DNA of 34,972 nt, taken from positions 1-34,972 of the IMG/VR virus record IMGVR_UViG_3300025168_000289; one strand, given 5' to 3'. This document shows, one piece after another, positions 2,146 through 14,753 of this stretch. Source of the stretch: a virus. Position 1 is the first letter of the stretch. Every line of letters starts with the position of its first letter. Made by a program: the position numbers and the translations under genes. The notes beneath the pieces were generated by a model. It was not told the origin of the DNA. It made no database searches and saw only the letters and a list, made by a program, of their open reading frames with translations.

Positions 2146-2345
2146 GCGACTGGGATAAAGAAAAAATAATGATAGCAGAATTAAAATCTGATGTTCATTA
2201 TATTCGCGAAGATATACAAATTATGCAAAAACAAATTAGGGATTTAAACACTACATCAAATATGGGTGTTGGATTTTTGAAGGCGACTATTTATATCGGC
2301 ACAATTTTAGGGGCTATATATACGTTATTTAAATTTTTGGATTAA
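2142..2345 (+). CDS. XhlA-like small membrane protein (holin/lysis accessory candidate)
   Basis: The preferred start is ATG 2142 in an ATGA overlap, giving 67 residues (MSDWDKEK...). A GTG at 2130 would add four residues. Residues 1-42 form a charged coiled coil (ELKSDVHYIREDIQIMQKQIRDL). Residues about 46-66 form one membrane span (GFLKATIYIGTILGAIYTLFKFL). This N-terminal coiled coil plus C-terminal anchor is the layout of XhlA-type hemolysin/holin helpers in phage lysis cassettes. The match is by topology, not by diagnostic residues. The stop abuts the 3' end of the tRNA gene on the other strand. Confidence 0.55.
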   Translation: MSDWDKEKIMIAELKSDVHYIREDIQIMQKQIRDLNTTSNMGVGFLKATIYIGTILGAIYTLFKFLD

Positions 2346-2420
2346 TGGTGCTGTAAGAGAGACTCGAACTCTCGACTTCTACCTTACCAAGATAGCGTTC
2401 TACCCCTGAACTATTACAGC
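2346..2420 (-). tRNA. tRNA-Thr (anticodon GGT), CCA encoded
   Basis: On the minus strand all four arms fold. The acceptor stem is GCTGTAA/TTACAGC. The D stem is GTTC/GAAC with loop AGGGGTA. The anticodon stem is CTATC/GGTAG with loop TTGGTAA. The T arm is GAGAG-TTCGAGT-CTCTC. The discriminator is A and CCA is encoded (2346-2348). Anticodon GGT reads ACC and ACU. G1:C72, C2:G71 and G35/U36 agree with known bacterial threonine identity elements. The gene lies opposite to the flanking genes. It may supply Thr-tRNA for the threonine-rich virion proteins or relate to an attachment site. Confidence 0.93.
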
Positions 2421-2430
2421 AAGGACAACT

Positions 2431-3132
2431 ATGAATAATAGCCGTGTTCTAATATTATCAGATACACACTTTCCATACGAAAAGCCAATGTATTTTAAAT
2501 GGATTAAGAAACTTAAAACTAAAATTAATCCTACAAATATTATACATATTGGTGATTTAGTAGATTTTAATTCTTTATCTTTTTGGGAAAAATCCCCTTC
2601 GTTAAAATCAGCAGTTTTTGAAATTGCGGACGCTAAAAAAAGAATAAAAAAGTTAGAATCTATTTTCCCCGAAATGAATATTTTGCTGGGGAATCATGAC
2701 ATACGAATACAACGATTAGGAGAAAAAGCCGGAATACCGGATTCCTTTTTTAAATCGTTAAATCAAATTTTAGATATTAAGTCTAATTGGACTTGGAATC
2801 AAAAACTAATACTACCCCTTCCAAACGGCAACAAAGTGTTTTTAACACACCATTTTAAATCTAGTTCTTTAGCTAGTTCAAAAGAATTAGGAATGTCTTT
2901 TATTTCAGGACATCAGCATACGGTATCTAATTTATCGTATTGGAGTAGCCCTACGGCTCTTAACTTCGCTATGACAGTTGGCTGTTCTATAGACCCTAAA
3001 CACGAAGCTTTTAAATACGGAAAAAATTTTATTAAGCGACCAATTATTTCAGTTGCATCTATCATTAATTCCCAACCTGCTTTACATAGTATGCCTTTAG
3101 ATGAAAACGGCGAATACACGGGGAAAATATGA
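2431..3132 (+). CDS. Calcineurin-like metallophosphoesterase
   Basis: This 233-residue protein carries the full two-metal phosphoesterase motif set: DTH at 11-13, GDLVD at 41-45, GNHD at 87-90, tandem His 140-141 and GHQHT at 160-164. It should hydrolyse phosphoesters (nucleotides, nucleic acid ends or phosphoproteins) in the cytoplasm. The substrate cannot be read from sequence. ATG 2431 follows AAGGAC at good spacing. The stop overlaps the next start (ATGA), linking it to the MazG-like protein and endolysin. Phages commonly carry such enzymes near lysis or nucleotide-metabolism genes. Confidence 0.9.
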   Translation: MNNSRVLILSDTHFPYEKPMYFKWIKKLKTKINPTNIIHIGDLVDFNSLSFWEKSPSLKSAVFEIADAKKRIKKLESIFPEMNILLGNHDIRIQRLGEKAGIPDSFFKSLNQILDIKSNWTWNQKLILPLPNGNKVFLTHHFKSSSLASSKELGMSFISGHQHTVSNLSYWSSPTALNFAMTVGCSIDPKHEAFKYGKNFIKRPIISVASIINSQPALHSMPLDENGEYTGKI

Positions 3133-5007: not shown

Positions 5008-5246
5008 AAATAGTTTTAGTTACTTGGCTGGACACTAATGAAAATTCGGTTGGTGGTTGGATTGAAAAATCTGATTTAGATAAATCGGAGGTTTGTAGTG
5101 TAGATTCTTTAGGTTGGTTGTATAAAGAAACTGAAGATTTAATTGTTATACTAGCCGATAAAGATACTCACGATAAGGATGACTTATTTGGTAGAAGCCA
5201 AGTCATCCCTAGAGGAGTTATAAAAGATATTAAGTATTTGAATTAA
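5004..5246 (+). CDS. Small conserved-type phage protein, unknown function
   Basis: This 80-residue acidic protein begins at GTG 5004, overlapping the TGA of the AT-hook-like gene. It reads as a compact beta-rich fold: IVLVTWLDTN..VGGWI, SVDSLGWLYKE, LIVILADKD and a closing RSQVIPRGVIKDIKYL. The SVDSLGWL...VILADKD...IPRG.IK.I pattern is one I recognise from small phage proteins of unknown role. It ends the rightward lysis block. Its stop shares the TTAA at 5243-5246 with the stop of the convergent gene on the other strand. Confidence 0.7.
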   Translation: MKIVLVTWLDTNENSVGGWIEKSDLDKSEVCSVDSLGWLYKETEDLIVILADKDTHDKDDLFGRSQVIPRGVIKDIKYLN

Positions 5247-5827
5247 GCTACAAATCTTATTTTAGGTTTTAAATCTGGTTTATTTCTATTTGGTCTATTA
5301 GACCACCCTTTAGAATTATTAGAATAAACAATTAATTTATCTTTTTTAAATCCTGCATATTCTAAATATTTACCACTTTGCCAATTATGAATATAAGTAA
5401 CTAATTTAGAAACCTTATAATTTTTTTTAAAATCTTTAATACTTTCTCTAATAAATTTACTAGGATATTTTTTTTCTTTGTTATTCTTTGGTTTAAAATA
5501 TGATGGAAAACATATTCTAGTTATTTCAAATATATTTTTATCTTTAAATCTAGCTATTGTATTTCCAATGCTACAAATACCTATTACTTTTCCTTTTGTA
5601 TAAATAACTTGGTCATTATTATCATCTAAACTAATTACAATTTCATTTTCTAAAAAATCTAAACCTTCTAAATCGTCAAACAATAATTCTGCGTAACCTA
5701 ATTTATGCCATTGATTTCCTTCTAAAGCTACATAACTTTTTCTATGACCAATAGGAGCAATATTAGTTTTATGATACAAATTATAAATAGCTTTAGCTAA
5801 ACTAAATTTAATAGGAACTATTTTCAT
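5243..5827 (-). CDS. Mom-like GNAT-fold acyltransferase (DNA-modification candidate)
   Basis: This 194-residue protein has GNAT-like features: KVIGICSIGNT (80-90), EITRICFPSYF (101-111), PSKFIRESIKDF (122-133), KLVTYIHNWQSGKYLEYAGF (141-160) and a basic SKGWSNRPNRNK tail (172-183). The order (strand, R.C.P, then S-[KR]-F-[IL], then K.V.Y....G..Y...GF) is what I expect of the phage Mu Mom family, which modifies adenine so that restriction enzymes do not cut. The ATG follows GGGAGGG. It is the last gene of the accessory block downstream of integrase. Another GNAT N-acyltransferase is the main alternative. Confidence 0.6.
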   Translation of the reverse strand: MKIVPIKFSLAKAIYNLYHKTNIAPIGHRKSYVALEGNQWHKLGYAELLFDDLEGLDFLENEIVISLDDNNDQVIYTKGKVIGICSIGNTIARFKDKNIFEITRICFPSYFKPKNNKEKKYPSKFIRESIKDFKKNYKVSKLVTYIHNWQSGKYLEYAGFKKDKLIVYSNNSKGWSNRPNRNKPDLKPKIRFVA

Positions 5828-8862: not shown

Positions 8863-9380
8863 TAAATATCCCCTTCTATTTTTTCGTCATCATGTAAATG
8901 TATTCCTAATCTAAAAGCTTCTTCACCGTCGATTTCTTGCCGAAGTCTTTTTATTTCTTCTTTTTCTTCCGGTGTAGTGATTCTCGGTGTTTCTGTAAAC
9001 AACGCCGGATTAACCGGTGCTTCCGTTTTAACTTTATCAATATCCTTTTTATCTTCTTCATTTCTATGCCCTTGATATAACAAATCATAAAAAGCTGTCG
9101 GCAATAACACCGTATGGTTTTTATCTTCGTAAACAATAAGCCACCAATAAAAAATTTTGTCCGTTAAAGTTTCTTTGAAAGTACTGCCCCAACGCGTTAC
9201 TGAATATATTGTTTTAGGTGGACTTGTTCCACATTGCGCTAATTCTTTTAATTGGGTTTTATCTAAAATTCTTTGTTCTTCTTCTTCAAAATATAATTTC
9301 CAAAGTTTATCAACAATATCTCCTTTTTCATTTTTACCCCCTTCTTCTATTTGTTCTATCTTAATAATTTTTTTACTCAT
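8862..9380 (-). CDS. Hypothetical acidic protein in the leftward early operon
   Basis: This 172-residue protein begins MSKKIIKIEQIEEGG after AAGGAAT. The middle is beta-like with aromatic residues (TIYSVTRWGSTFKETLTDKIFYWWLIVYEDKNHTV, within about 57-90). The end is a highly charged acidic helix (EEKEEIKRLRQEIDGEEAF). No known family was recognised. It overlaps both neighbours by 1-4 bases, between the PD-(D/E)XK nuclease and the HTH gene, so it belongs to the recombination/integration operon. Confidence 0.6.
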   Translation of the reverse strand: MSKKIIKIEQIEEGGKNEKGDIVDKLWKLYFEEEEQRILDKTQLKELAQCGTSPPKTIYSVTRWGSTFKETLTDKIFYWWLIVYEDKNHTVLLPTAFYDLLYQGHRNEEDKKDIDKVKTEAPVNPALFTETPRITTPEEKEEIKRLRQEIDGEEAFRLGIHLHDDEKIEGDI

Positions 9381-9808
9381 TTTATTCCTTGAAGTAAATA
9401 TTCGCCTAATAATTCTTTCTTAATTAGTATCGCCTTTTTTTGTTGAGTATCCCCGTTCCCTATAAAAGATACAAAGTTAAGTTTGTTTAATAAAATACAT
9501 TCAAAAATCTTTATAGGTGTCGTCCAAAGAAATTTAAACCCGTCAAAGAAAACCCAATAATCAGCTTTAGACTTTAGTATTCCCGAAGGTTTACCGTACA
9601 TTTCTAATTCAACTACAATATTTCCTGTTTCCATACTTTTTTCATCTGATTTAACTTCTACGCTTTTATTAATTTCCGGTATCCAAATATCGTAGTTAGG
9701 AAAATACCCTTCTATTTTAGTTGCTGCCGGATAACGAAGTTGAATGATAGATAATACTTGTCCTTCTATACTTTCCCCTTTGTTTAAATCGCGTTTAAAA
9801 GTTTGCAC
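9377..9808 (-). CDS. PD-(D/E)XK-fold nuclease domain protein
   Basis: This 143-residue protein shows a restriction-like nuclease core: GESIEGQVLS with Glu near 15, NYDIWIPEINKSVEVKSD with Asp40 and the E51-V-K53 pair, then GNIVVELE and KPSGILKSKADYWVFF. The D...ExK spacing and the following SKADYWV helix/strand are typical of small phage endonucleases and resolvase-like enzymes. It probably cuts branched or specific DNA during recombination, replication or host takeover. The target is unknown. It overlaps both neighbours by a few bases. Confidence 0.75.
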   Translation of the reverse strand: MQTFKRDLNKGESIEGQVLSIIQLRYPAATKIEGYFPNYDIWIPEINKSVEVKSDEKSMETGNIVVELEMYGKPSGILKSKADYWVFFDGFKFLWTTPIKIFECILLNKLNFVSFIGNGDTQQKKAILIKKELLGEYLLQGIK

Positions 9809-10212
9809 TATATTCCACCCATTTTTATTTCAGCCCTAGAATTACTATTTTGTTCCACCATGGCGTCTAGTTTCTTTTCTTTCCCAACGTAAGAACTAGA
9901 ATGGGTAGCTAATTCGTCTTTTGCCGTTACTATTTCTTTTTTCTTTTCCTTAACGCTTTCGTCGGTATTGGCTTTCGCTTCCGCTACTTTGTCCGATATC
10001 TTTTCGTTAGTACCTACCGGATATTTATGTTCTAAAAATTTTACGTCTAATAAATCTTTTAGTTCTTGTTCTAAATTCTTTATTTTATTACGCGCTATTT
10101 CTTTATTTAAATGTAATGATTGAAATAAGTTTCCTAATAAATGGGGATCGTATTTATAAAAACCGCCTTCTAATCTAACTATATTTTTTTCGTTTATATT
10201 TTTATAATCCAT
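9808..10212 (-). CDS. Hypothetical coiled-coil protein
   Basis: This 134-residue protein has a short N-terminal part (NIVRLEGGFYKYDPHLLGNLFQ) and then a long Lys/Glu-rich coiled coil (about 36-125). The last base of its frame is shared with the ATG of the nuclease gene, so the two are coupled. It may be a structural partner or a DNA-end/recombination helper, but no motif supports a definite role. Confidence 0.6.
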   Translation of the reverse strand: MDYKNINEKNIVRLEGGFYKYDPHLLGNLFQSLHLNKEIARNKIKNLEQELKDLLDVKFLEHKYPVGTNEKISDKVAEAKANTDESVKEKKKEIVTAKDELATHSSSYVGKEKKLDAMVEQNSNSRAEIKMGGI

Positions 10213-10214
10213 AA

Positions 10215-10487
10215 TTAATCTAATCTATCCGCTATTAAATGTAATGTTTTCGCCCTAATTGTATTATTAAAATCTTTATCTTTATGCGCTTTATTATGGC
10301 AGGGGCGACATAAACACGTTAGATTTTCTATGTAATCAAAACATTTGTGTTTACTTCCACCCATACCTTTGTTGTTTATATGGTGAATATCTACGCCTTC
10401 CCAACTTGAACAATTAAAACATTGATACGATTGCGCTATTGTTAAATTGTCATTCCAAAAATTCATAAATATTTGTTTATAATTCAT
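10215..10487 (-). CDS. HNH endonuclease
   Basis: The preferred start is ATG 10487 (MNYKQIFMNF, 90 residues), overlapping the upstream micro-gene as ATGA. An upstream TTG is less likely. It has the zinc-ribbon HNH layout: C23-x-x-C26, DIHH (33-36), N55 in ENL, C60-x-x-C63-H64 and H68. It should nick or cut double-stranded DNA using one metal ion. It lies in the recombination operon, not next to the terminase, so it may process recombination intermediates or act as a homing-type nuclease. Confidence 0.85.
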   Translation of the reverse strand: MNYKQIFMNFWNDNLTIAQSYQCFNCSSWEGVDIHHINNKGMGGSKHKCFDYIENLTCLCRPCHNKAHKDKDFNNTIRAKTLHLIADRLD

Positions 10488-10573
10488 TTTGAAATACGAT
10501 CTCCAATACCCCAAACCATTAAAGCTATTAAAACCAAAACTATTAATTGTAATAATAAAATAATTGTAATCAT
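10484..10573 (-). CDS. 29-residue single-span membrane micro-protein
   Basis: ATG 10573 lies just after the stop of the upstream gene, and TGA 10484-10486 overlaps the HNH start as ATGA. The sequence begins MITIILLLQLIVLVLIALMV and ends WGIGDRISK. It is one membrane span with a basic tail. Overlap at one end and near-abutment at the other support translation. A membrane peptide inside a recombination operon is unexpected; superinfection exclusion is one possible role (inference). Confidence 0.45.
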   Translation of the reverse strand: MITIILLLQLIVLVLIALMVWGIGDRISK

Positions 10574-10574
10574 A

Positions 10575-10805
10575 TTATTCAAACGAAAGATTTGGTTTAT
10601 GTACTTTTACGTTCGAAGATAATTGATTCTGTTTTTTATAAACCCTTTTTATTTGTCTTTTCTTATCTTCTAAAACTTGGTTTATAGATTCTTCTTGGCA
10701 ACTATCTTCATAATTTGGAAAGCGTAAATTGTTTTCTTCGCAAATTCCAACGTATCTTTTAGTTAATATTTCCATAATAATACTTTCTACTTTTTTTATT
10801 TTCAT
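10575..10805 (-). CDS. Hypothetical small charged protein
   Basis: This 76-residue protein is rich in Lys, Glu and Gln (MEILTKRYVGICEENNLRF; QVLEDKKRQIKRVYKKQNQ). No strong ribosome binding site is visible before the ATG at 10805, and ATG 10775 (MEILTKRY) is an alternative. It lies between the SSB-like gene and the membrane micro-gene in the leftward operon. No motif was recognised. Confidence 0.5.
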   Translation of the reverse strand: MKIKKVESIIMEILTKRYVGICEENNLRFPNYEDSCQEESINQVLEDKKRQIKRVYKKQNQLSSNVKVHKPNLSFE

Positions 10806-10813
10806 TCATTTTA

Positions 10814-11344
10814 TTAAAAAGGGATATCTTCTTCTATATCTTCGCCTTCTATTTGAGCGTTGTTACTTGCTTGTTGTACTTCAAGTTTTTTAACAAATAA
10901 AACACTAGAAAATTGATTACCTTTAGCGCTAGTTTGGTCTTTCTTTTTATAAGTAAATTCTAATTCGTCGCCTTCTTGAATCCAGGATAAAGGCTCGTTA
11001 GCATAAAAAGTTTTATCTTCGCCGTTTACTTGCCCTATAATTCTAAAATTATTTTTACCGTCTTTAGAATAATCGTCTAATCTTGTTACGATACAAGTAC
11101 CTTTTTCGTTTTGTGGCGAAACACTATTAGCGTTATAAGGTTGTTTAGCTTGATTATAAGTATTAGCTACCGTATTTTGTGGGTTGTTAGAACGCTTTTT
11201 TAAAGTAAAAGTACCGCCAAAAGATAGTTTAATAAAAACAGTACCGTTATCATTAATCCAACCAGCCCCCATTTTTCTATCGGTTTTATTTCCTTTATAG
11301 ACTTCTTCGTAAACTACGTCGTAATTAGGTAATTTGTTTTCCAT
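10814..11344 (-). CDS. SSB-like OB-fold protein with acidic DIPF tail
   Basis: The preferred start is ATG 11344 (MENKLPNYD), preceded by GAAGGA, giving 176 residues. The upstream extension to 11431 is inside the neighbouring nuclease gene. A possible OB-fold covers about 82-156 (CIVTRLDDYSKDGKNNFRII, then WIQEGDELEFTYKKK). The C-terminus ends EGEDIEEDIPF, the acidic tip by which bacterial SSB recruits partner enzymes. The order after the split exonuclease suggests single-strand binding in recombination or replication. The N-terminal 50 residues (MGAGWINDNGTVFIKL) may be a second beta domain. Confidence 0.6.
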   Translation of the reverse strand: MENKLPNYDVVYEEVYKGNKTDRKMGAGWINDNGTVFIKLSFGGTFTLKKRSNNPQNTVANTYNQAKQPYNANSVSPQNEKGTCIVTRLDDYSKDGKNNFRIIGQVNGEDKTFYANEPLSWIQEGDELEFTYKKKDQTSAKGNQFSSVLFVKKLEVQQASNNAQIEGEDIEEDIPF

Positions 11345-11957
11345 ATCCTTCTTTCCTTGCTTGTTTGCAATAATTAACCACCGAACAATATTGTGCACAT
11401 CTTCTTGATATGCCTTTTCTAATTTCAACAAAAGCTTTCGGAACTGTAATTTTAAATTCTTCCGCTTCTTTTAAATTAGTAAAAAGTTTTTTAGCCCTTT
11501 TTTGTTTATCAACCATTACGGCGTAAACATCTTCGCCCTTCCAACGTTCTTTATTCGTACAATCAATTTCTTTATTTTCCATATTGAAAAGAAAGTCTGC
11601 TTGTTGGTGGGTTTCTATTCTATCTTTAATATAATCTTGTTGTTCTTTGTCAGACCATAAAGGTAAATCTACTATTTGAATCGGTAACAAAGGATAACCA
11701 CCGTCGTTCTTTTGTGATTCAAAAGCTTTAGACTTTTGCCAATCCCGAAGTATTGCAATAATTTGAAGTTTTGTTACCCGATAACCGTTGGCTCTACATA
11801 ACCATGCATAAACATTTTGTTGTTTAACCCATTCTTCTTTGTAACCGTTAGGATTATCTTTAGACTTTAATAAAGACCAAGCCGACGTAACTTTATAATC
11901 TTGTACTATTATTTTTTTTAAATCTCTTTCAAAAGCTTCCATAGTTAATTCACTCAC
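11325..11957 (-). CDS. C-terminal half of a split PD-(D/E)XK exonuclease
   Basis: This 210-residue protein starts at GTG 11957, overlapping the methyltransferase stop (GTGA). ATG 11942 is an alternative. It begins with about 15 residues of new sequence and then continues a RecB/Cas4-like nuclease: IIVQDYKVTSAW (16-27) with Asp20 and Lys22, a Q-x-x-x-Y motif (QNVYAWL), LQIIAILRDWQKSKA, a second part with HQQADF, and a cysteine-containing end RRCAQYCSVVNYCKQ. The first active-site Asp is on the other half (12846-13178). The overlap with the SSB-like gene suggests an end-resection role. Confidence 0.8.
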   Translation of the reverse strand: MSELTMEAFERDLKKIIVQDYKVTSAWSLLKSKDNPNGYKEEWVKQQNVYAWLCRANGYRVTKLQIIAILRDWQKSKAFESQKNDGGYPLLPIQIVDLPLWSDKEQQDYIKDRIETHQQADFLFNMENKEIDCTNKERWKGEDVYAVMVDKQKRAKKLFTNLKEAEEFKITVPKAFVEIRKGISRRCAQYCSVVNYCKQARKEGYGKQIT

Positions 11958-12856
11958 TTTCTAAATACTAAAACGTTTTGATGTATCTTTACTAATTTTT
12001 GATTTCTCATTTGTCCGTTAGCTCTCATACTTGCCGAGCCGGTTGGTTGACAATAAACAGCGTCGTTGTAAAAAGGTATTCCGCAATTTTGAAAAGCTTT
12101 AATAGTATCGGCTACAAACCCTCGATAGTTACCTTTTTTATCTCGAAAATCCCCTATAACAAAACAAGCATAGCTTCCCTTCTTTAAAAGCTTACAACTT
12201 TTATCTATTATTTCGGTATAGCTTTCTAAAAATTTAGAATATTCCATATTAGAAATATCATCTTCTAAATCGCTATAAACTTCTAAATCACCGTAAGGAG
12301 GACAAGAAAATACAAAATCAAATTCTTCGTCGATAGTATCTAATACTTTATTTGCATCGCCAATAATCCAATTTGGCTGTTGATTACTTTCTAATATTTC
12401 TATTCCTTGTTCAATATTACTATCTATTTGTGCTTTACGAATATCTATACCGGTATATTTATAACCAAGATATTCGGCTACTATTCCCCTAACCGAGCCA
12501 CCTGCAAAAGGGTCTAATATTTTACCGCCTTCAATACAAAACCAAGTATATAAAACTTCACATAAAGCTGGATCAAAAATACTAATAGTACCTATTTCCA
12601 TTATTTTTTGTGTACTTTCGGATTGATGGGTTAAACCATGCTTTGAAGCAAAAGAATTATTACCTTTAGTTGTTGTTTCCCTACCGACTTCGCTTCGCAT
12701 TCCTAAATCTTTCCAAATTCTTTTTCTTCTTTGCCAATTACCTTGTTTGGAATCTAATATTGTAAAGGGGGGCTCTATAAATCTATCCCGTAAAATAGTT
12801 TTCTTTTCTATTTCGTTACCGAATAAATCTTTATCTTGCGCTGTTTCACTTATCAT
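11954..12856 (-). CDS. DNA methyltransferase (N4-cytosine/N6-adenine type) inserted in the exonuclease
   Basis: ATG 12856 is preferred (MISETAQDKD), giving 300 residues; TTG 12859 adds one. It contains ILDPFAGGSVRG (113-124, SAM-binding motif I) before SCPPYGD (184-190, catalytic motif IV), the order of the gamma class. Upstream blocks DRFIEPPFTILDSKQGNWQRRK (24-45) and a GR box recur in phage methylases as I recall. CPPY does not decide between N4-C and N6-A. It overlaps the upstream half-exonuclease by 11 bases and the downstream half by 4, with a TCACTT copy at each edge. Confidence 0.88.
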   Translation of the reverse strand: MISETAQDKDLFGNEIEKKTILRDRFIEPPFTILDSKQGNWQRRKRIWKDLGMRSEVGRETTTKGNNSFASKHGLTHQSESTQKIMEIGTISIFDPALCEVLYTWFCIEGGKILDPFAGGSVRGIVAEYLGYKYTGIDIRKAQIDSNIEQGIEILESNQQPNWIIGDANKVLDTIDEEFDFVFSCPPYGDLEVYSDLEDDISNMEYSKFLESYTEIIDKSCKLLKKGSYACFVIGDFRDKKGNYRGFVADTIKAFQNCGIPFYNDAVYCQPTGSASMRANGQMRNQKLVKIHQNVLVFRK

Positions 12857-13178
12857 CAAGGATAACCATTCGATCTATTGCTCCAGAAATGACCCAACCT
12901 TCACACTGTGCAAACAATCTTTTTTCGGTTATCGCCTTTTTATCGTTGTCGTTTTCTTCTATAGCGTTATGAACTGCCGTTCCTAAAAATGACCAAACCA
13001 TATCGCTAATATCTTCTGATAATTCGTCTTTATATTTTTCCTTTAATATTTTAACTTTAGGACTATCAATTAATTGTGTTACCGAGATATCTGATTCGCC
13101 CCTAGAATACTTGGAGGAGGTTCTCGTTATAAGCGAATACAGACTACTCGGCAAATTATGGATATTGGTGAATTTCAT
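12846..13178 (-). CDS. N-terminal half of a split PD-(D/E)XK exonuclease
   Basis: ATG 13178 (MKFTNIHNLP) overlaps the upstream micro-gene as ATGA, giving 110 residues; the TTG at 13217 is less likely. It holds the first half of the RecB-like nuclease: ESDISVTQLIDSPKVKIL (28-45), FLGTAVHNAIEE (64-75, with the motif His70), EKRLF and SGAIDRMVI (98-106) with the metal-binding Asp102. It then stops after LDDK. The continuation IIVQDYKV is in the gene at 11325-11957. Joined as LDDK-KIIVQDYKV the two give a normal core. Confidence 0.8.
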   Translation of the reverse strand: MKFTNIHNLPSSLYSLITRTSSKYSRGESDISVTQLIDSPKVKILKEKYKDELSEDISDMVWSFLGTAVHNAIEENDNDKKAITEKRLFAQCEGWVISGAIDRMVILDDK

Positions 13179-13279
13179 ACGGGAAGAGGTATTTCCATCA
13201 CCATTCCATAAAGACAATAGACTACTATAAACGCCCAGAAGGTCATGAATAGTATTCCAATTATAAATTCTTTATTCAT
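13175..13279 (-). CDS. 34-residue single-span membrane micro-protein
   Basis: ATG 13279 overlaps the stop of the upstream gene, and TGA 13175-13177 overlaps the ATG of the nuclease N-half as ATGA. The sequence begins MNKEFIIGILFMTFWAFIVV and ends YCLYGMVMEIPLPV. It is a single hydrophobic helix. It resembles the micro-protein at 10484-10573 in size and coupling pattern. The function is unknown; its position decides the start of the nuclease N-half. Confidence 0.5.
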   Translation of the reverse strand: MNKEFIIGILFMTFWAFIVVYCLYGMVMEIPLPV

Positions 13280-13502
13280 ATTTAGCTTTCCAAGTAGATT
13301 GTAAGGTACTACTAATTGCTAAATGAATGCTAATAAGATTACGTTGTAAATTCGTATAAGGTTTATTTTCTTCCTTACGACGTTTACAATCTTTAATAAC
13401 TATTATTTCTCTTTTTTTATTTAATTCTTCTCTTGTTGTAGGTAATGTTATAATGTTCTCTACGGGAATATTATCTACAACTTTTAAATCAGGTTTAGAC
13501 AT
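13272..13502 (-). CDS. Hypothetical small protein, first gene of the leftward early operon
   Basis: This 76-residue basic protein begins MSKPDLKVVDNIPVENIITL after AAGGAAAA. The middle is a Lys/Arg/Glu-rich helix (REELNKKREIIVIKDCKRRKEE). It ends LISIHLAISSTLQSTWKAKYE. It is the first gene after the operator and the two hairpins, so it would be made first and most, a position often used for host-takeover or anti-termination proteins. No known motif was found. Confidence 0.6.
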   Translation of the reverse strand: MSKPDLKVVDNIPVENIITLPTTREELNKKREIIVIKDCKRRKEENKPYTNLQRNLISIHLAISSTLQSTWKAKYE

Positions 13503-13519
13503 AATTTTCCTTTTTTAAA

Positions 13520-13540
13520 GGGGAAGTTGAGAGCTTCCCC
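13520..13540 (-). promoter_or_regulatory. Perfect 7-bp hairpin in the leader of the leftward operon
   Basis: GGGGAAG (13520-13526) pairs with CTTCCCC (13534-13540) around a 7-base loop. On the transcript strand it lies about 20 bases upstream of the first start codon and is followed by only TTT then A-rich sequence. It is not a good intrinsic terminator; an attenuator, antitermination site or stability element is more likely. Confidence 0.55.
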
Positions 13541-13603
13541 TAATGAAGATATCGAACTACATATTCGACTAATAGACTCCGAAAACAAATTTCAAATTTT
13601 ATA

Positions 13604-13626
13604 GAAGGGCAGCGAATCCGCCCTTC
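13604..13626 (-). promoter_or_regulatory. Second perfect 7-bp hairpin in the leftward leader
   Basis: GAAGGGC (13604-13610) pairs with GCCCTTC (13620-13626) around a 9-base loop. It sits between the left operator (13696-13715) and the first leftward gene, in a very AT-rich region, so two GC-rich perfect stems stand out. No T run follows on either strand. The other bases in 13503-13731 show no gene. Confidence 0.55.
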
Positions 13627-13695
13627 CATTCGGCGACTATAAGCAAATAAACGAATTTAATTGCTTATTTAGGTAATTAAAGGAAGTTATTTACG

Positions 13696-13715
13696 TTGTC
13701 AATAATATTTGACAA
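13696..13715. promoter_or_regulatory. Left operator-like inverted repeat
   Basis: TTGTCAA (13696-13702) and TTGACAA (13709-13715) form a perfect 7-bp inverted repeat with a 6-base AT spacer. TTGTCAATA also occurs at 14403-14411 and 14447-14455 on the other side of the repressor gene. It lies 16 bases past the repressor stop and upstream of the leftward operon, the place of an OL operator. A -35-like TTGACA is embedded in it on the minus strand, but no good -10 was found. Confidence 0.6.
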
Positions 13716-13731
13716 TTTAAATTAAATTATT

Positions 13732-14382
13732 TTATTGGGTATCTATAATTTCAAAATTTCTAAAGCACATGCTAGAAATAGGGTATATTTTATTTGAATT
13801 AATTTTTTGTTTTCCTTCTATAAAGTTGTCGCAATACAAAAGACCTTTTTTATTTTTAAAGATATAAGTTACTTGGGCTTCTTGCTTTTCGTTAAATACA
13901 ACGGCAAAACCTTCTTCAAAATCCGGTACATTAATTGTTTCAAAGAATTTGATATGAGGATATTTTTCAGATAAACGATAGCTTATTATTGCTTTTATAT
14001 TTTCTTTTATTTCCCCGTCCCTTAATAAAATTATAGCTTGTGTAGGGTCGTTTATTAAATCTGGTAGTTCTAATATAGGTTTTTGATATTCTTTAAAAGC
14101 TACGGAATATCTAGGTATTTCGTTATCAAACAATCTATTTAAGGGTAAATTACTATCAATATTTTTAAATATTTTATGTAGAGTTCTTATAGATTTTAAA
14201 TTTGGGGGTATATCTCCCGTTAGATAATCGTTAATTGTTGAATGGTTAATATAAAATTCTTCGTTGTTTCCTAAAAGTTTAGTTTGTCTTGATATTTCCC
14301 TAGCCGATAAATTAAAATCAAAAGCTAAATTTCCTAGCGTAGTGTCTTTTTGATATTTTTTAGCTTTAACCATAAAATCCAT
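13732..14382 (-). CDS. CI-like phage repressor (HTH)
   Basis: The preferred start is ATG 14382, five bases after a perfect GGAGG, giving 216 residues (MDFMVKAKKYQK). A TTG at 14409 is inside an operator repeat and unlikely. Residues about 14-60 read as an HTH domain (LAFDFNLSAREISRQTKLLG, then HSTINDYLTGDIPPNLKSI). The C-terminal part has mixed strands (HIKFFETINVPDFEEGFAVVF) but no clear Ser/Lys of S24 self-cleavage. Flanked by TTGTCAA repeats, with divergent operons on both sides, it is the likely lysogeny repressor. Confidence 0.75.
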   Translation of the reverse strand: MDFMVKAKKYQKDTTLGNLAFDFNLSAREISRQTKLLGNNEEFYINHSTINDYLTGDIPPNLKSIRTLHKIFKNIDSNLPLNRLFDNEIPRYSVAFKEYQKPILELPDLINDPTQAIILLRDGEIKENIKAIISYRLSEKYPHIKFFETINVPDFEEGFAVVFNEKQEAQVTYIFKNKKGLLYCDNFIEGKQKINSNKIYPISSMCFRNFEIIDTQ

Positions 14383-14402
14383 AACTACCTCCGGTATAAG
14401 AT

Positions 14403-14411
14403 TTGTCAATA
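14403..14411 (+). promoter_or_regulatory. Operator-like repeat TTGTCAATA (copy B)
   Basis: An exact copy of the 9-mer found at 13696-13704 and 14447-14455. It lies in the leader of the repressor gene, 44 bases from copy C in direct orientation. It is a probable repressor or Cro-analogue binding half-site that could autoregulate the repressor. Confidence 0.5.
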
Positions 14412-14446
14412 AAGCAATTTACGGCAATTTAAAGAAAATTTTAACT

Positions 14447-14475
14447 TTGTCAATATTTATTAACTTTGGTATAGA
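14447..14475 (+). promoter_or_regulatory. Rightward early promoter overlapping operator copy C
   Basis: TTGTCA (14447-14452), then exactly 17 bases, then TATAGA (14470-14475). Transcription would start near 14482, just before ATG 14490. The -35 box is part of the operator word TTGTCAATA (14447-14455), so a bound repressor would block RNA polymerase, like lambda PR. The promoter drives the LexA-type protein and replication genes. Confidence 0.6.
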
Positions 14476-14489
14476 ACAAATTAGAACTT

Positions 14490-14753
14490 ATGGAAACTAA
14501 ATGTCATGTTTGTGGAATGGTTAAAGACGATAGGGGTTATTTGACGCCTAAAGAAACCAAAATAATGAAATATATCCAAGATTTTATAGAAGAATATAGC
14601 ATTAGCCCTAGTTTTAGAGAAATAATGGTAGGCGTAGACTTAAAATCTACTTCTAGCGTTGATAGATATTTATTTCAACTACAAGCTAAACAATATCTTT
14701 ACGTTAAGAACGGAAAATGGAGAGCGATTAGAATTTTACAAAGGATAACATGA
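14490..14753 (+). CDS. LexA-type winged-HTH regulator with CxxC (Cro-position protein)
   Basis: This 87-residue protein has an N-terminal C5-x-x-C8 and then a domain matching the LexA DNA-binding region: LTPKETKIMKYIQDFIEEY (18-36), SPSFREI (39-45), DLKSTSSVDRYLFQL (50-64), YVKNGKWRAIRIL (71-83). The C-terminal self-cleaving peptidase of LexA is absent. It is divergent from the repressor and is the first rightward gene, the position of Cro. It probably binds the same control region or host SOS-like sites. The start is at the 5' end of a near-leaderless transcript. Confidence 0.8.
   Translation: METKCHVCGMVKDDRGYLTPKETKIMKYIQDFIEEYSISPSFREIMVGVDLKSTSSVDRYLFQLQAKQYLYVKNGKWRAIRILQRIT

Follow-up and report, generated by a model that had tools for sequence, protein, structure and literature searches.

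A phage phrog_2139 exonuclease gene divided at its active-site hairpin, with a DNA methyltransferase gene at the junction

The analysis of an IMG/VR virus record of 34,972 bases (this whole stretch of DNA is referred to as the window) revealed a phrog_2139 exonuclease gene that is divided into two coding regions at an active-site hairpin, with a complete DNA methyltransferase gene between the halves. The arrangement is conserved in a different phage, and sibling lineages have the gene broken at this hairpin as well, with no gene inserted. We consider it probable that the exonuclease functions as two chains divided at a tolerant hairpin, and that the methyltransferase is housed at the gene boundary, which it is likelier to have entered than to have created. 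The three open reading frames (ORFs) and the adjoining gene are arranged as follows:

12846-13178, minus strand: N-half of a Cas4/RecB-like PD-(D/E)XK exonuclease, 110 aa, matching phrog_2139 positions 2-84
11954-12856 from ATG (12859 from TTG), minus strand: DNA adenine-N6/cytosine-N4 methyltransferase, with Pfam and PHROG matches
11325-11957, minus strand: C-half of the exonuclease, 210 aa, GTG start, matching phrog_2139 positions 145-321
10814-11341, minus strand: SSB-like protein with an acidic DIPF tail (ending DIEEDIPF), directly downstream of the C-half

The methyltransferase ATG at 12856 results in an overlap of 11 bases with the N-half, whose protein ends in SGAIDRMVILDDK before the stop codon, and the GTG start of the C-half, which contains KKIIVQDYKVTSAW, overlaps the methyltransferase stop by 4 bases. 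An assembly error was ruled out: 5,958 bases that span the edge between N-half and methyltransferase recur with 100% identity in another IMG/VR contig (L002), and all three genes are arranged in the same way in a different phage (L007). The portal protein of the window is nearest to that of Pelagibacter phage HTVC106P (44%). For the SSB-like protein, no Pfam or PHROG family match was obtained; counterparts occupy the same place in two split relatives (L264, 5539-5907; L268, 5432-5722).

The earlier note had described one nuclease divided between its catalytic Asp and D-x-K, with a complete methyltransferase overlapping both parts, and this description is borne out. Both halves match the phrog_2139 exonuclease in complementary ranges (N-half, 2-84 of 330, E=1e-14; C-half, 145-321 of 330, E=3e-29), and the family is normally encoded by a single gene for 290-340 aa; such unsplit homologues, with lengths of 289-337 aa, are found in the isolates Pelagibacter phage Baldr, Leptospira phage LE3 and MinM2 and in vir555. 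The N-half carries the catalytic residues His70 (in GTAVH) and Asp102 (in SGAIDR), and the C-half carries D20-Y-K22 and Q46xxxY50 as well as four cysteines (C133, C187, C191 and C197) in an iron-sulfur-type pattern. In 75 unsplit relatives, the His, Asp, D-x-K and Gln are invariant; the four cysteines, all located in the C-half, are invariant as well, and every split member retains the complete set. Single-sequence scans of viral contigs gave little, and alignment queries had to be used. Compared to the unsplit relative L271, the N-half is 55% identical to the corresponding N-terminal part and the C-half 48%. A PDB sequence search with the nuclease profile returned no match.

The position of the break was mapped on a predicted structure of L271 (mean pLDDT 95), in which Asp101 lies just before strand 102-104, and Asp112 and Lys114 lie on strand 109-116. 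According to this model, the window's split falls in the turn at 105-108 between the two strands, which places the first catalytic Asp on one chain and the D-x-K on the other. Foldseek identified the Cas4 protein SSO0001 (4ic1, E=1e-7) as the best solved match of the model, followed by RecE, with Exo5 and lambda exonuclease as further matches; a PD-(D/E)XK fold is thus predicted, for the unsplit relative rather than for the assembled halves. The C-half predicted alone (pLDDT 88) shows a new short helix at 6-11, followed by the core strand at 14-24. Outside the clade of the window, the hairpin spacing is 7-16 residues, and unsplit clade members have 10, 21 or 28. The window's hairpin totals 27 residues (8 on the N-half and 19 on the C-half), which is within the range of these unsplit members. 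Therefore, the roughly 15 extra residues of the C-half, previously ascribed to the insertion, need not stem from it; they correspond to a loop that unsplit siblings also have in expanded form. In 4 of these (L256, L258, L261 and L262), hairpin insertions of about 10-18 residues are located at the split site and are possibly scars of re-fusion.

The conservation of the arrangement was assessed by comparison with L007, which has the same order of N-half, methyltransferase and C-half as well as the same 11-base first overlap, and retains all catalytic residues and the four cysteines. Amino acid identity between the window and L007 is 65% for the N-half (67% after realignment), 87% for the methyltransferase and 65-66% for the C-half. 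Pairwise dN/dS is approximately 0.14 for the N-half (dN 0.216, dS 1.54) and 0.27 for the C-half (dN 0.254, dS 0.955), values that are rough, with synonymous sites near saturation. Furthermore, between the N-halves of two split siblings, L257 and L268, 19 of 22 differences are at third codon positions. Judging from these comparisons, both halves are under purifying selection. Together, the conserved order, the selection and the retained residues indicate that the split is old and that a live, two-chain nuclease is very probable. Of the two outcomes proposed in the earlier note, a split enzyme or a dead one, the former is hence favored.

The split is not confined to loci with the methyltransferase. 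Of the 241 nuclease loci retrieved, 226 have both parts in one ORF; the remaining 15 comprise the split lineages, with several loci from one and the same contig, and two contigs truncated at the 5' side. In L263-266 (four assemblies), the gene is split at the same hairpin with nothing between the halves: the last residues of the N-half are ESDD, and an ATG within a ATGATTAA overlap begins the C-half with MIKKIKIYDYK, an upstream in-frame TTG being another possible start. L257 and L268, which share 83% DNA identity over 2 kb, are likewise split at this hairpin without the methyltransferase; here, the N-half ends in IIIEEE, and for the C-half, which uses a different frame, the start is a TTG with AGGA ahead of it. 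In the insert-free types, the frames of the two halves differ by a +1 shift. These loci likely represent two genes instead of a frameshift; a programmed frameshift in place of a new start is possible for L263-266 and L257/L268 only. The window and its split siblings share the gene order of repressor region, nuclease, SSB-like gene, HNH, g9808 and integrase. Because sibling lineages are split at the same hairpin without a methyltransferase, the split does not require an insertion. The claim that the landing of the methyltransferase had caused it is not supported. Aligned to homologues, the two halves are members of a single family and accompany each other, as the note had expected, and the insert-free siblings come close to the observation that it had named as speaking against itself. 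In one of these insert-free relatives (L264), an apparent cytosine-C5-type methyltransferase is encoded elsewhere in the early region (2149-3123, minus strand).

In the phylogenetic tree, an 18-row clade (support 100/100) contains split and unsplit members in mixed order, which takes 4 changes of state; at least 3 are required by the starred branches. The hypothesis that all split rows form one clade was rejected by a topology test (p-AU 6e-59). A clade of only the window, L007 and the L263 split type was also rejected (p=0.0004), so that a split ancestor shared with L263 would require re-fusion in its unsplit sisters. The tree topology fits repeated splitting, or splitting and re-fusion, in either order. 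The closest lineages lacking the methyltransferase are 45-50% identical, and none of them shows the state just before insertion.

The inserted ORF exceeds the Pfam N6_N4_Mtase cut-off (47 bits compared to 26.7) and matches phrog_12517 with E=2e-86; the motifs DPFAGG and CPPY, the latter an atypical form of motif IV, are conserved in the alignment. Only methyltransferase domains were found in this ORF by Pfam and PHROG searches, which revealed no homing endonuclease domain. By these matches, the protein is assigned to the orphan phage family phrog_12517/phrog_498, and its role is presumably self-protection of phage DNA. The nearest named relatives mostly have a ParB-like N-terminal domain, which is absent from the window's protein and from most of its 80 nearest relatives on viral contigs. 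Among the 80 nearest methyltransferase loci, for which the flanking ORFs were tested, nuclease halves flank the gene only in L007, and no other split gene was evident in 17 neighbor pairs read by eye. On the basis of these 80 loci, a mobile methyltransferase that generally splits genes was rejected.

Identity to L007 shifts near the edges of the methyltransferase gene, and at four-fold sites it is 51/74 (0.69) for the methyltransferase vs 31/69 (0.45) for the halves (Fisher p=0.004), which suggests that the methyltransferase was exchanged as a cassette after the split. The HNH and g9808 genes show similar patches of identity to L007, and therefore ordinary mosaicism is enough to explain this pattern. 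The HNH endonuclease (10215-10487, minus strand) and its neighbor (9808-10212, minus strand) are 94% and 96% identical to L007, compared to 54-76% for most genes adjacent to this module; by these identities, the two are taken to be recently exchanged modules. A further gene near the split nuclease (9377-9808, minus strand) encodes a protein of the functionally unassigned family phrog_13596 with a VEVKS motif; it is possibly a second PD-(D/E)XK protein. Moreover, the gene at 5243-5827 (minus strand) has a weak match (E=5e-4) to the Mom-like DNA modification protein phrog_1384 and is possibly a second DNA modification gene.

We propose a recombination-type exonuclease whose two chains would be translated separately and come together to form one active enzyme. 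The break would lie in the beta-hairpin turn between the strand after the first metal-binding Asp and the strand with D-Y-K, so that whole secondary-structure elements would stay on each chain and the hairpin could pair across chains; in this clade, the hairpin is unusually long and appears to tolerate changes in length. Splitting, or splitting and re-fusion, would have occurred more than once by a change of frame in which a start codon of the C-half overlaps the end of the N-half. In the lineage of the window, an orphan methyltransferase, which is of a type that many marine phages carry, would have entered at the existing boundary between the halves, where it may serve as an ordinary operon gene, probably translationally coupled, and would later have been exchanged as a cassette. 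A more far-reaching version, which we regard as rather doubtful, holds that the two-chain nuclease is a natural and repeatedly evolved form whose junction docks cargo genes, with the coupled translation of the cargo setting the ratio of the halves.

For the window's own lineage, the insertion could have made the split. According to this alternative, which is the model of the earlier note and which we regard as possible but somewhat unlikely, a nuclease gene that was still whole received the methyltransferase, as nrdA of Aeh1 did with mobE; its two parts would have persisted as a two-chain enzyme, and the sibling splits would have arisen independently at the tolerant hairpin. It agrees with the separate branch formed by the window and L007 (98/95) apart from the other split lineages, with the finding that all splits cannot form one clade, and with the identical 11-base overlap at the first edge in L007. 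However, the same-site splits without an insert make an insertion unnecessary. Furthermore, methyltransferases of this family on viral contigs are found in many contexts and adjoin ordinary genes with small overlaps, including those of 4 or 11 bases, in many phages, which is as expected for insertion at gene boundaries. A target duplication conserved in L007 was not found either. The copies of TCACTT reported at each edge are present (11954-11959 and 12846-12851), but they do not qualify as the trace of an insertion: the window contains 12 copies of the hexamer compared to 18 expected, both edge copies are AAG-TGA (Lys-stop) codons, and the pair is absent from L007. A target-site duplication was therefore rejected, and the copies are best read as chance.

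The remaining explanations are far less probable. A dead nuclease with two remnants in decay would agree with the interruption of the gene and with an activity that is so far a prediction; yet both frames are open in two phages that are about 35% diverged in these proteins, with the low dN/dS values and the retained active-site residues described above, and the same applies to L257/L268, which renders decay very improbable. Equally hard to credit is that the halves are rejoined into one protein, either because the methyltransferase resides in a self-splicing intron or through ribosomal bypass or frameshifting. Mobile introns of phages often carry ORFs, and the insert-free split types are offset by a +1 frame, but an Rfam search of 10500-14500 revealed no intron or other RNA family at E<=1, the methyltransferase overlaps both coding halves at their start and stop codons, and a ribosomal bypass of 0.9 kb is, to our knowledge, without precedent. 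The earlier note had further envisaged a new type of linked nuclease/modification unit. A functional, restriction-modification-like unit of the three genes would account for their adjacency and overlaps being conserved in two phages; however, among 326 loci, the window phage and L007 alone have both families, and the nuclease is exonuclease-like (with matches to Cas4, RecE, lambda exonuclease and Exo5) and adjoins an SSB-like gene, which suggests recombination instead and leaves such a unit very improbable. A restriction-modification system proper was rejected, as no cognate restriction endonuclease is linked, the nuclease is of the exonuclease type and none of the other loci examined links the two.

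The literature search, which covered sources other than subscription journals, did not turn up any description of a phrog_2139 or Cas4-like phage nuclease in split form, or of such a gene harboring a methyltransferase. To the few phage enzymes that work as two parts, the locus would add an exonuclease, and a methyltransferase as the gene in between; the two ORFs are candidates for a naturally split Cas4-like nuclease. As insert-split, insert-free split and unsplit versions occur in one syntenic clade, it becomes testable whether splitting came before or after insertion, and also how a divided active site reassembles.

Within its own family, the enzyme shares catalytic residues and cysteine pattern with other phrog_2139 exonucleases (e.g., Baldr WDQ27613.1), nearly all of which are one chain, whereas the window enzyme consists of two chains broken at the active-site hairpin; its predicted nuclease fold is similar to that of Cas4 SSO0001 (PDB 4ic1). 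In its methyltransferase domain, the inserted protein is about 40-52% identical to ParB-MTase proteins (Listeria phage B054, phiFL3A and others) and has their motifs, but it lacks the ParB-like domain found in most of the named phrog_12517/phrog_498 proteins. With respect to gene organization, the locus shares a trait with insertion-split genes of the Aeh1 nrdA/mobE type, in that the gene is whole in relatives while an unrelated ORF separates its parts in the window and L007. In Aeromonas phage Aeh1, nrdA is likewise a phage enzyme gene in two coding regions with an unrelated ORF, the homing endonuclease mobE, between them, and the split NrdA was shown experimentally to be functional (PMC2988022). 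In contrast to Aeh1, the window's insert is a methyltransferase that lacks a homing endonuclease domain, and the divided enzyme is an exonuclease of the Cas4-like type; the split also occurs in siblings without any insert. The closest analogue of the favored order of events is the gene 43 DNA polymerase, which is split both with an endonuclease (seg) in phage 25 and without one in 44RR; the review suggests that gene 43 may already have been divided when the endonuclease invaded it, and 43A and 43B of phage 25 co-purify with polymerase activity (PMC2988022). Compared to gene 43, enzyme and intervening gene differ, and the insert-free halves overlap here, whereas those of 44RR are separated by an untranslated spacer.
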